A DNA stretch of 64,000 bases from Balneolaceae bacterium (GTDB lineage: Bacteria; Bacteroidota; Rhodothermia; Balneolales; Balneolaceae), in the NCBI GenBank assembly GCA_034521495.1, contig JAXHMK010000010.1, positions 496,001-560,000 of the forward strand. Direction: 5' to 3'. Made by a program: the position numbers and the translations under genes. Position 1 is the first letter of the stretch; the number at the start of each line of letters is the position of its first letter. Of this stretch, positions 28,096-31,478 are shown one piece after another. The notes under the pieces are model-generated. The model saw only the letters and a list, made by a program, of their open reading frames with translations. It was not told the origin of the DNA and searched no databases.

Positions 28096-29682
28096 TCACT
28101 TCTCCCCAAAATACCTCTCTCTAAACCGGCTAAACTTAACCATTACTTTCCGCCTTCCTGTTGGGGTTGATACAAGTGTAACTCCTTTCACAACGATGTA
28201 AACCATTCCTAAAATTATTGGTATAAGCCAAAGAGCGTAATCCTGATAAGATGTGAGGTAGGAGATCATCGGCTGGCCAACAAGGGCTGATACCCACACC
28301 AGTAACGGTGCCCAAATAATCATCGCCAGGATAAAATAGAAGAGAAAAAAACTGAATTTAACGCTTATCATCCCTGAAACCAGGTAAACCGGCAATCGAG
28401 TACCGGGCAGGAAACGAGTAGCAAAAATAATCTCAACACCTCTCATACGATACATCTGTTCGGCTTTTACAATATCCTCTTGTTTGATGAACCATCGGAA
28501 TGGAATCCATTTTAAAATAGGATTGCCAATATATCTTCCAAGAGCGTAGAGTATTACATCAGGAATCAAAACGCCAAGACATGCTGCCAGAACAGCGAAC
28601 CAAAAATCTATAATACCACTGGCTACCAGTAGTCCCCCGGCAATGCATGCCAGATCTTCGCTGAAAATGGCAATCATAATAATCAAAAACATAATAATGA
28701 CCAGCGTCCATCCCCCGATCGTTTCAAAGTTTTCAGTATCAAATGGGGCCCTGGAATCCTCTACCCTGCTTTTTTCAGCATTCTGACGGGTTTTTGCAAA
28801 ATTTTGATCGACTCTTGAAATAAATTCTGTAATACTCGAATCCAGTAACGACGGATTTTCCTTTGTTGTGAGGTGATCTCCATCAATTACAAACAGTGAG
28901 CTATGCGGCACCAGCCTGTAGATCTCCTCCGCAATGGCCAATGAGACATACCGATCATCTACGGGCTGAATGATATGGACAGGCATTTCAATATTACTCA
29001 GCTGTTCACGAACGGGTCGCTGATCAAGAGCTGTAAGGGTTTTTGCAAAATCAAAATTAACAGGTTGCTCATAATACCAGCCCATATGCGGAATCAAATA
29101 TTTGAAGACCGTAACTGCCGGGTAAAGCATGGAATAAAGAGAACGGTTTGTCAGATGGTTTCCAAGAAATTGCAGCTCCTGCGGTCCATAAGAAGAGATC
29201 AATGTCAAGCTTTGGAATCGATTAGTTGTTTCTTCAGATGCAAGATTGATCCCAATCAGACCTCCATAACCATGCCCAACCAAGTGGACATTTTGTACAT
29301 TCAGGGAATCTAATAAAACATTAACGTAATCTGAGCGGCTTTCAACTGAATAGGGAATAGATCGATCAGAAGTTGTTGATGTAGGAAACTCAGGAATAAT
29401 CACATTGACTGAATCCTGTAGCTCCCGGGCCAGTGGTATGAGGAATTCCGCCCCCCCAAACAGATCCGGAAGAAGTACCAATGTCTGCTCCTTACTCTTT
29501 CTGTCCAGTGAATAATATGAATGACTAATCTGCTTACCTGATACTTCTATATTCTTCTCTTTCTGGTACAGGTTGGGTTTATCTGACGTGGGAAAGAAAT
29601 ATTGTACACACCATGAGAGAAGCAGCGCCCCCACATAAAGAATTGCAATAATTTTCAGTGACTTGGTAAGATTGTGCGCCAA
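28096..29682 (-). CDS. Alpha/beta hydrolase-DedA fusion membrane protein
   Basis: A 528-residue fusion. An N-terminal membrane helix (about 10-30) leads to an alpha/beta-hydrolase domain (about 60-300: TLVLLPDLFGGAEF, NVHLVGHGYGGLIGINLA, a DDRYVS acid loop, DGDHLTTKENP with His). The C-terminal 200 residues are a DedA/SNARE-associated domain (IFSEDLACIAGGLLVASGII, GRYIGNPILK, FATRFLPGTRLPVYLVSGMI). The hydrolase nucleophile position reads GHGYGG where family enzymes have GxSxG, so the Ser is missing. DedA proteins move or sense phospholipids; the acyltransferase gene next door fits a lipid role. Confidence 0.85.
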   Translation of the reverse strand: MAHNLTKSLKIIAILYVGALLLSWCVQYFFPTSDKPNLYQKEKNIEVSGKQISHSYYSLDRKSKEQTLVLLPDLFGGAEFLIPLARELQDSVNVIIPEFPTSTTSDRSIPYSVESRSDYVNVLLDSLNVQNVHLVGHGYGGLIGINLASEETTNRFQSLTLISSYGPQELQFLGNHLTNRSLYSMLYPAVTVFKYLIPHMGWYYEQPVNFDFAKTLTALDQRPVREQLSNIEMPVHIIQPVDDRYVSLAIAEEIYRLVPHSSLFVIDGDHLTTKENPSLLDSSITEFISRVDQNFAKTRQNAEKSRVEDSRAPFDTENFETIGGWTLVIIMFLIIMIAIFSEDLACIAGGLLVASGIIDFWFAVLAACLGVLIPDVILYALGRYIGNPILKWIPFRWFIKQEDIVKAEQMYRMRGVEIIFATRFLPGTRLPVYLVSGMISVKFSFFLFYFILAMIIWAPLLVWVSALVGQPMISYLTSYQDYALWLIPIILGMVYIVVKGVTLVSTPTGRRKVMVKFSRFRERYFGEK

Positions 29683-29707: not shown

Positions 29708-30481
29708 TTAATCTAACATATTGATGTTCATCGGAATAAACATTTTTTCAGCTTCTTTTTGAAGATCTCCTGCCAATTCTTTTCTGTCGTCATTTTTTAG
29801 ACTTTTCCTTCCAAAAGTTACGGTAGCCGTAATGGATCTGTTAGAAGCCAACCCGATGAAGTGTTTCATCAAACTCACATCCTGCCACCATGAAACCGTA
29901 TCGCGTGCAGGTGGATCATTTTTACCTGTTTCATAGCGGATAACAGCATAATGAACATCAAAAGCTGCTTCCACAGGATGCTGAAGCAGAGAAGGCCTGA
30001 ATGGCTTAATCTCATCACCGGGTGACGTTCGGCCCTCCGGAAAAAGAACTACTCCCTGATGTTCATTAATTTTATCTGCTATCATCGAATTCACTCTGTG
30101 AACATCTCTTTTCCGTGATCTGTCAATAAAGATAATTCCGAGTGTTCTGGCCATAAATCCTAAAACCGGCCAATATTTAATTTCTGATTTGGCCACAAAC
30201 GTTGTTTTCAATGCATAGTAGTATACAGGAATATCAATATAACTTAAATGGTTGCTCACCAGGAAAAAAGGTGGTTCGGGCGGAGTTCCTTCAATTTCTA
30301 TCTTCGCACCAAGACATTTCATTGAGTGTAATCCCCAAAATTTTAAACACCGATTTCGCCATGGCTCATATTTTTTACCGAATAGCTTGGCAACAATCAA
30401 ACCAACTGCAAAAAAGATGTAGTTTCCAACAGTGAATACGATGAATATGAAAATCTTAATAACTGCTATACTTTTCCTCAT
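29708..30481 (-). CDS. 1-acyl-sn-glycerol-3-phosphate acyltransferase (PlsC family)
   Basis: A 257-residue membrane-bound acyltransferase. Seen: one or two N-terminal helices, the HX4D motif in SNHLSYIDIPVYYY, RSRKRDVHR, and the FPEGRTSPG substrate motif. It should transfer an acyl chain to lysophosphatidic acid or a related lysolipid. It lies 25 bases upstream of the hydrolase-DedA gene on the same strand, so the two are probably one unit. Confidence 0.88.
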   Translation of the reverse strand: MRKSIAVIKIFIFIVFTVGNYIFFAVGLIVAKLFGKKYEPWRNRCLKFWGLHSMKCLGAKIEIEGTPPEPPFFLVSNHLSYIDIPVYYYALKTTFVAKSEIKYWPVLGFMARTLGIIFIDRSRKRDVHRVNSMIADKINEHQGVVLFPEGRTSPGDEIKPFRPSLLQHPVEAAFDVHYAVIRYETGKNDPPARDTVSWWQDVSLMKHFIGLASNRSITATVTFGRKSLKNDDRKELAGDLQKEAEKMFIPMNINMLD

Positions 30482-30668
30482 GGCACATTTTTTTTAGTCC
30501 AATTGTCAAGATATAAAAGAAATTGAATTACTTCTTTACCATTTGATTTCGTGTTGTGTGGAGGTTGATCAGTGCTTTTTGTACATATTCAATCTCTCCG
30601 AATCATTTTCGTATATTTTTTCGTTATCAATTATGATATAGTCAATCTTGAGGCAATTCTTAAACCGA

Positions 30669-31478
30669 ATGCTTTACACAAAAACATATTTAAACTCTCC
30701 CGATAAAGATTGGGTAGTATTTATTCATGGAGCCGGTGGTTCATCTGCCATCTGGTTCCGACAGGTAAAAGCCTATCGTGAGGAGTTTAATGTTCTCCTG
30801 GTAGATCTTCGCGGCCATGGAAAATCTAAAGAGATGAGCTCAATACAGGCTCACTATAAAGAGAAGTACACCTTCAAAACAGTCAGTAAGGATGTTATTA
30901 AAACCCTGAACACCAATAATATTGAAAAAGCCCATTTTGTAGGTGTTTCTCTCGGAACCATTATTATTCGAACCATTGCAGAAATGGAACCCGACCGGGT
31001 GATATCATCCGTAATGTGCGGAGCCATAACGCGGCTGAATATCCGCTCCAGGATCCTTGTCTGGCTGGGACACACGTTTAAAAAAATTGTGCCATTTATG
31101 TGGTTATACCAGCTATTTGCGTGGATTATTATGCCCAAAAAGAACCACGAAGAGTCCAGGAGTCTATTTGTACAGGAAGCAAAAAACCTGGCAAGAAAAG
31201 AGTTTCTCAAGTGGTTTCGGCTTACCTATGATATAAATCCACTACTGCGATATTTTAAGGAGCGAGAGATGGACACTCCGACTTTGTATGTGATGGGCGA
31301 AGAAGATCATATGTTTTTGCCCCCTGTTAAAAAGATGATTCAAGATTTTGACCACTCCTACCTTGTGGTTGTGAAGGGAAGCGGCCATGTTGTGAATGTT
31401 GAACGCCCGGAAGAGTTTAATGAAGTCTCTATGGAGTTCCTGATGAACCACAAAAGATATCTTCAGCAAACGGCTTGA
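30669..31478 (+). CDS. Alpha/beta hydrolase
   Basis: A 269-residue alpha/beta hydrolase. I start it at the ATG at 30669 (MLYTKTYLNSPDKDWVVFIH); a TTG 21 bases upstream is less likely. Oxyanion segment FIHGAGGSSAIW, nucleophile elbow GVSLGT, acid Asp in MGEEDHMF and His in GSGHVVNVERPEEF form a complete triad. The cap region is helical and basic. The substrate is unknown. Unlike the fusion protein at 28096 it keeps the catalytic Ser. Confidence 0.86.
   Translation: MLYTKTYLNSPDKDWVVFIHGAGGSSAIWFRQVKAYREEFNVLLVDLRGHGKSKEMSSIQAHYKEKYTFKTVSKDVIKTLNTNNIEKAHFVGVSLGTIIIRTIAEMEPDRVISSVMCGAITRLNIRSRILVWLGHTFKKIVPFMWLYQLFAWIIMPKKNHEESRSLFVQEAKNLARKEFLKWFRLTYDINPLLRYFKEREMDTPTLYVMGEEDHMFLPPVKKMIQDFDHSYLVVVKGSGHVVNVERPEEFNEVSMEFLMNHKRYLQQTA

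Follow-up and report, generated by a model that had tools for sequence, protein, structure and literature searches.

An apparent pseudo-hydrolase domain fused to a DedA-family protein and encoded beside a PlsC-like acyltransferase in Balneolaceae

DedA proteins are probable lipid flippases, the substrates of which are mostly unknown. A gene in the 64,000-nucleotide stretch of DNA of the salt-loving Balneolaceae that was analyzed here (hereafter, the window) raises the question of what an alpha/beta-hydrolase (ABH) domain without its nucleophile serine does when it is fused to a DedA domain and encoded next to a PlsC-type acyltransferase. In a preliminary description of the locus, made from its sequence, the domain was read as a pseudo-hydrolase that may sense a lipid or position a phospholipid flippase. 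The features of the locus are as follows (coordinates are positions in the window; residue numbers are those of the fusion protein).

28096–29682, minus strand: whole gene, 528 aa, TTG start, coding for a transmembrane (TM) helix, a pseudo-ABH domain, and a DedA/VTT domain (open reading frame, Pfam, AlphaFold2 model).
29596–29664, minus strand: N-terminal TM helix, residues 7–29 (model helix 7–29, with basic residues before it).
28798–29574, minus strand: pseudo-ABH domain, about residues 37–295, predicted to be periplasmic (Pfam, Foldseek, VIA-align).
29464–29469, minus strand: former oxyanion-hole HG pair, now Pro72-Asp73 (residue counts in homologues).
29260–29277, minus strand: GHGYGG nucleophile elbow, G136-H-G138-Y-G-G141, with the Gly138 codon GGT at 29269–29271 (sequence, alignments).
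29008–29187, minus strand: lid region, residues 166–225, with G166, E169, G174, N179, P198, G201, D220, R222, and R225 (kept in the Ser and non-Ser groups of the site table).
28954–28956, minus strand: Asp243, acid position of the triad, present (residue counts in homologues).
28873–28875, minus strand: His270, triad His, present in the window protein and eroded in relatives (residue counts in homologues).
28168–28725, minus strand: DedA/VTT domain, about residues 320–505 (VTT_dom match, model helices).
28654–28659, minus strand: Glu342-Asp343 of the first re-entrant segment (64 of 64 alignment rows).
28396–28416, minus strand: R423-FLPGT-R429, with both basic residues of the second re-entrant segment (each in all 64 alignment rows).
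28099–28167, minus strand: basic C-terminal helix, cytoplasmic as judged by charge, at the point where an ATP-grasp domain comes in long homologues (K+R versus D+E means).
29708–30481, minus strand: PlsC/OlsA-like acyltransferase, 257 aa, with NHLSYID and FPEGRT motifs (PF01553, 74.3 bits, cut-off of 23).
30648–31478, plus strand: stand-alone divergent alpha/beta-hydrolase with a GVSLGT motif, an internal control and possible separate hydrolase (Pfam, orthologue motif).

In Pfam searches, residues 67–164 matched Abhydrolase_1 (PF00561) with 49.3 bits (cut-off of 25.8), and residues 351–464 matched VTT_dom (PF09335) with 55.8 bits (cut-off of 33.9). The AlphaFold2 model of the window protein has a mean pLDDT of 91.7 and a pTM of 0.82, and residue 138 is located between a strand (residues 132–137) and a helix (residues 139–149), i.e. 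at the nucleophile elbow. Comparisons of the ABH domain with solved esterases gave a Foldseek E-value of 6.6e-12 and VIA-align Z-scores of up to 25.5 (rmsd 3.0, 252 aligned residues). This was in agreement with the earlier statement that GHGYGG stands in place of GxSxG in a domain that keeps its fold and its His, as seen from the Pfam match, the model, and His270. The lists of structural matches were filled by the ABH part, and the DedA fold was barely probed by these comparisons; a sequence search for a solved DedA homologue gave none at E ≤ 1.

The topology of the protein can be predicted from the distribution of basic residues and from the helices of the model. Over 64 aligned rows, the 14 residues ending at position 8 contain 2.64 K+R on average, and the C-terminal helix has means of 6.86 K+R versus 1.09 D+E. 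Basic residues also fill the loop of residues 388–400, and the loop of residues 471–478 has almost none. The first helix is thus likely oriented with its N-terminus in the cytoplasm, the ABH domain would face the periplasm, and the C-terminus would return to the cytoplasm, where the ATP-grasp domain of the long forms would also be located.

The loss of the active site extends beyond the nucleophile. In the window protein, Gly138 occupies the position of the Ser of GxSxG, and the oxyanion-hole HG motif is replaced by Pro72-Asp73, which adds to the preliminary description, in which the loss of Ser alone had been noted. A search of 92 Balneolaceae genomes gave matches in 80, and the loci were fetched and the homologues aligned. 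Ser is absent from 52 of the 53 ABH-bearing family homologues that were scored, with Gly in 46, Arg in two, Ala in two, Asn in one, and Lys in one; five loci of genus g19 were left out of this count because their N-terminal part is too eroded to score. The partial copies L071 and L072, which are outside the 53-row count, also have Gly. The single Ser-bearing row (L035, from genome G074) keeps HG, Ser, Asp, and His. The remaining catalytic positions follow the same division between the non-Ser homologues and the Ser-bearing ones: the oxyanion pair is P in 38/52 and D in 37/52 versus H/G in 17/18, position 243 is D in 38/52 versus 18/18, and position 270 is H in 21/52 versus 18/18. Judged from these alignments, the ABH domain is a lineage-wide pseudoenzyme that derives from a catalytic ancestor, and the earlier reading of it as a pseudo-hydrolase is upheld for nearly the whole family.

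An error of sequencing at the Ser codon, or an artefact confined to one genome, which the preliminary description had raised, is rejected as practically inconceivable, as Gly GGT is only one base away from Ser AGT but Gly is common to 46 of the 52 non-Ser homologues, among which each of the four Gly codons occurs, the nearest relative (Rhodohalobacter sulfatireducens, of the window's genus, 75% identical) also has GHGYGG, and the adjoining hydrolase of the same genomes keeps its Ser. It is also very unlikely that the domain is still catalytic, with water or another residue replacing Ser or as a lyase-like variant. Some ABH proteins function without Ser, and the window copy has retained both Asp243 and His270, but the oxyanion HG is gone as well, His is absent from 31 of the 52 non-Ser homologues, and the nucleophile position is variable, so the homologues share no substitute set of catalytic residues. 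Gly may be favored at residue 138 because the turn at the nucleophile elbow is strained.

The origin of the Ser-less state was apparent from the relatives of the family. A search of the class, which comprised 244 genomes, gave 19 further genomes with a homologue, in three other families (f10, f13, and f19). These proteins are about 860–920 aa long. Ser138 is kept in 18 of the 19, the nineteenth (L121) having a gap there, and these 18 all have Asp243 and His270 as well. The objection anticipated in the preliminary description, namely that most homologues have Ser, thus fails within the family and is correct outside it, where retention of Ser indicates that the Ser-less state is derived and not original. 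The proteins of the other families and of several Balneolaceae genera also have an ATP-grasp-like domain of ∼330 aa at the C-terminus, as judged from weak RimK/ATP-grasp Pfam matches and the alignment. The protein lacks this part in the window's genus, and the window's own genome contains weak generic ATP-grasp matches only.

In a tree built without the catalytic columns, the Ser-bearing L035 is nested among non-Ser rows in a clade of 12 (support 99/97). This position, together with the joint retention of HG, Ser, Asp, and His in L035, favors several parallel losses of Ser. A tree with all non-Ser rows in one clade was not rejected by an AU test (p = 0.077, lnL difference of 12.7), and parsimony on the Ser state gave two changes, with loss and regain indistinguishable. 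The tree was built without the ABH-less or strongly eroded forms of genera g4 and g19 and without rows that were cut, split, or doubtfully placed. The copy of genome G060 (L071) is split into two ORFs, and that of G232 (L122) has an in-frame stop. When 395 genomes drawn from the phylum were searched, no ABH-DedA match at E ≤ 1e-25 fell outside the class; the scores of the DedA part were at least 256 bits in the class and, after a gap, at most 84.5 bits for ordinary DedA proteins.

The PlsC gene lies 25 nt upstream of the fusion gene on the same strand. Its product belongs to the PlsC/LPAAT superfamily by the PF01553 profile and by its HX4D and EGT-type motifs. With the OlsA equivalog (NF052553) it scored 119.9 bits, below the cut-off of 300 bits, so its substrate is not fixed as that of OlsA. 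A PlsC/OlsA-like gene adjoins 65 of the 70 family loci, often with an overlap or a gap of a few bases. Both the DedA fusion and the acyltransferase neighbor that had been pointed out earlier are real and widespread. The gene is absent from four of the 70 loci, in which at least 1.3 kb upstream was read, and one further locus is cut off. A second recurrent neighbor of the PlsC-DedA unit is the stand-alone hydrolase, which keeps GVSLG[TS] in 53 of 54 orthologues. The loss of Ser from the ABH domain can therefore not be put down to sequencing or to general decay. The stand-alone hydrolase could have taken over a hydrolytic step.

Upstream genes in the loci of f10, f13, and f19 and of several Balneolaceae genera code for OlsB-like, OlsA/PlsC-like, and DinB-like proteins. 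Among the 19 class loci outside the family, 16 contain an OlsA-like ORF and 16 an OlsB-like ORF, with three loci cut by contig ends. The OlsB-like and OlsA-like genes of the relatives score below the NCBIfam equivalog cut-offs. In the window's own genome, OlsB is located next to a second OlsA-like gene on a different contig (L154:6447–8243, minus strand). The ATP-grasp domain was considered as proof of a link to aminolipids, and this argument is weakened by the occurrence of the ATP-grasp part alone in many genomes outside the class, as seen in the 395-genome draw. No OlsB- or OlsA-like ORF was found in 20 such loci (L155–L174), and a DinB-like ORF is near the ATP-grasp gene in 14 of them. These loci are from Bacteroidota-type genomes. 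Their ATP-grasp protein is ∼350 aa long, has a hydrophobic N-terminal helix, and is widespread among the 395 genomes. On inspection by eye, its recurrent neighbors include NRDE/TANGO2-like and YHS-type proteins, and a single ORF covers both the NRDE-like part and the ATP-grasp in L165 and L168.

In the DedA part, Glu342, Asp343, Arg423, and Arg429 are each conserved in 64 of 64 rows. For DedA proteins of COG0586, acidic positions at the first re-entrant helix (Glu39 and Asp51 of YghB) have been described, and Arg130 and Arg136 of YghB have been tied to binding of the substrate, undecaprenyl phosphate (UndP) (PMC10127716). The window protein resembles this group in its match to the VTT profile and in its two Arg residues, which are six residues apart, as are those of YghB. 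In a five-row alignment with the other DedA proteins of the genome, Glu342-Asp343 aligned to one of the two acidic YghB positions. Characterized precedents for DedA transport comprise UndP flippases (PMC10127716) and a phosphatidylethanolamine (PE) transporter (PMC12893004). The reported share of single-domain proteins in COG0586 is 93%, and rhodanese and PAP2 are the only fusions named in the cited part of that work (PMC10127716).

These likenesses allow for a reading in which the DedA part is a UndP flippase and the ABH domain and PlsC neighbor are unrelated to its substrate. UptA (NF052604) is indeed the best NCBIfam DedA match, and both basic residues associated with UndP binding (PMC10127716) are present in all 64 rows. 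However, the match of 65 bits is far below the UptA cut-off of 250 bits, and the window protein differs from UptA in its fusion to an ABH domain and in its first re-entrant segment, which is SEDLxCI, with Glu and Asp side by side, and not of the ENIFPPIPSE type. The genome also carries two more, ordinary DedA proteins, and the PlsC/OlsA-like gene is adjacent in 65 of 70 loci, which makes the UndP reading quite unlikely.

Whether the dead domain is kept for a purpose was approached through its evolutionary constraint. Pairs with dS above 1 are saturated, so the values quoted are those of close pairs, and the window gene, which has no close enough partner, is not among them. In non-Ser pairs with dS under 1, omega was 0.11–0.30 for the ABH domain and 0.03–0.21 for DedA; in close Ser pairs, for which dS was mostly above 1, it was 0.10–0.17 and 0.05–0.23, respectively. 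The ratio of ABH to DedA omega was about 1.4–4.4 in non-Ser pairs (dS under 1) versus about 0.6–1.9 in close Ser pairs. The omega of the dead ABH domain is low yet above that of DedA, which indicates that the domain is under purifying selection yet relaxed relative to DedA. A comparison of 18 Ser rows with the non-Ser rows (27 short, 25 long) showed that S158, G166, E169, G174, N179, P198, G201, D220, R222, R225, E253, R256, and S261 are kept in both groups, with the active site lost in the non-Ser group. Most of these residues are located in the lid or in the helix after the Asp strand of the model.

Two genera have gone further. In the nine loci of genus g4, the ABH part is wholly gone and PlsC-DedA is kept; therefore, the ABH domain is dispensable. 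In the five loci of genus g19 (L066–L070), the proteins are 522–529 aa long, but their N-terminal ∼300 residues are eroded, and the one member that was scanned gave no Pfam ABH match in this part. These forms apparently represent a late stage of ABH erosion. The scanned member still shows LLGGYYLNN, which resembles the lid motif.

The strongest rival explanation is accordingly that the ABH domain is a decaying remnant, which has been jobless since catalysis was lost, persists because it folds and links the first helix to DedA, and is heading for loss. The ABH-less and eroded forms (nine and five loci), the higher ABH/DedA omega ratio of the non-Ser pairs, and the loss of His from 31 of 52 homologues are what would be expected of such a remnant. 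Less readily explained by it are an omega that stays well below 1 (0.11–0.30 in close non-Ser pairs), the retention of a specific residue set in both short and long non-Ser rows, and a reading frame that is intact in nearly all copies. We regard this explanation as possible, though on the doubtful side. The complete loss in g4 and the g19 member that Pfam does not recognize suggest that the dead domain may not serve a function that is worth retaining, and the retention of PlsC-DedA in g4 and the faster evolution of ABH than of DedA argue against a strong role for it.

Building on the observed domain content, catalytic loss, lineage distribution, operon, and purifying selection, we prefer, tentatively and with close to an even chance of being right, to view the window protein as a pseudoenzyme-transporter fusion, i.e. 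an inner-membrane DedA lipid translocase with a tethered periplasmic dead ABH domain that is kept as a non-catalytic lipid-binding, docking, or structural module. The ancestral form, which survives in other families of the class, would have had a Ser-Asp-His triad outside the membrane, DedA in the membrane, and ATP-grasp inside, and would have been encoded together with OlsB-like and OlsA/PlsC-like acyltransferases. Most likely, a membrane lipid would have been deacylated or cleaved at the periplasmic face, and the product would have been moved inward and rebuilt inside, in a Lands-cycle-like recycling of an amino-acid-type lipid or a phospholipid. In Balneolaceae the hydrolytic step would have been lost. 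In the window form, DedA would translocate a (lyso)lipid that the adjacent PlsC acylates on the cytoplasmic side, and the dead ABH domain, with its lid and charged residues kept, would serve as the non-catalytic part of the transporter.

We infer transport, its direction, the substrate, the coupling, and whatever role the dead domain may have from the PlaF and LplT-Aas analogues discussed below, the adjacency of PlsC, the conserved DedA residues, and the predicted topology, which together suggest that in the ancestor a lipid was hydrolyzed outside, translocated, and rebuilt inside. The case for amino-acid lipids is least strong in the window's own genus because the ATP-grasp part is absent and OlsB is located elsewhere, beside a second OlsA-like gene. 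Type strains of Balneolaceae (Fodinibius) are reported to show unidentified aminolipids (PMC12260241), which fits, without proving, an amino-lipid substrate. A bolder version of the proposal, which we consider conceivable and yet unlikely, is that the class has a one-chain lipid-recycling machine in which a phospholipase-like hydrolase on the periplasmic side, a DedA flippase, and an ATP-grasp ligase in the cytoplasm are joined, and which carries out, with OlsB/OlsA, a bacterial Lands cycle of an amino-acid lipid. This machine would have been converted in Balneolaceae, perhaps repeatedly in parallel, to a flip-and-reacylate device in which the dead hydrolase is the lipid-capture domain of the flippase.

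The conserved fusion and operon bring together DedA, a (formerly active) lipid hydrolase, PlsC/OlsA, and, in relatives, an ATP-grasp ligase, and they thus provide a direct guess at the substrate and direction of a DedA protein. The natural series from active ABH to dead ABH to no ABH would allow the contribution of a pseudoenzyme domain to a transporter to be studied. Among the open-licence PMC papers searched, none was found that combines ornithine lipid with DedA or that joins DedA, Bacteroidetes, acyltransferase, and ATP-grasp, and the ABH-DedA fusion was absent from the titles listed.

Among known systems, the OlsB/OlsA pathway of ornithine lipid synthesis is resembled by the loci of the relatives, in which OlsB-like and OlsA-like genes share an operon with the gene; the window locus, in contrast, adjoins an OlsA/PlsC-like gene only. 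LplT is a major-facilitator transporter and is not known to be related to DedA. The LplT-Aas system of Escherichia coli is nevertheless the precedent for flipping a lysophospholipid and then acylating it, and it resembles the window locus in having a flippase and a PlsC-type acyltransferase as a working pair, a pairing that is putative here (PMC11416262). It differs in that it has no hydrolase part, and the transporter of the window is a DedA protein. PlaF (PDB 6i8w), an inner-membrane phospholipase A1 of Pseudomonas aeruginosa, has the same order of one N-terminal TM helix followed by a lid-bearing ABH domain, which faces the periplasm in PlaF (PMC9132575) and is predicted to do so here. Residues 9–294 of the model aligned with PlaF with a Z-score of 23.9 (rmsd 5.7, 272 aligned residues). 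However, PlaF is catalytic, with Ser, and has neither DedA nor ATP-grasp, whereas Ser and the oxyanion HG are both missing from the window protein. PlaF may serve a Lands cycle, for which, according to its authors, the partner acyltransferase is still to be found, and the operon type described here would make the hydrolase-acyltransferase pairing that they seek testable (PMC9132575). In summary, by analogy PlaF is the nearest counterpart of the TM-plus-ABH part of the window protein, and LplT-Aas is the nearest counterpart of its putative flip-then-acylate function.
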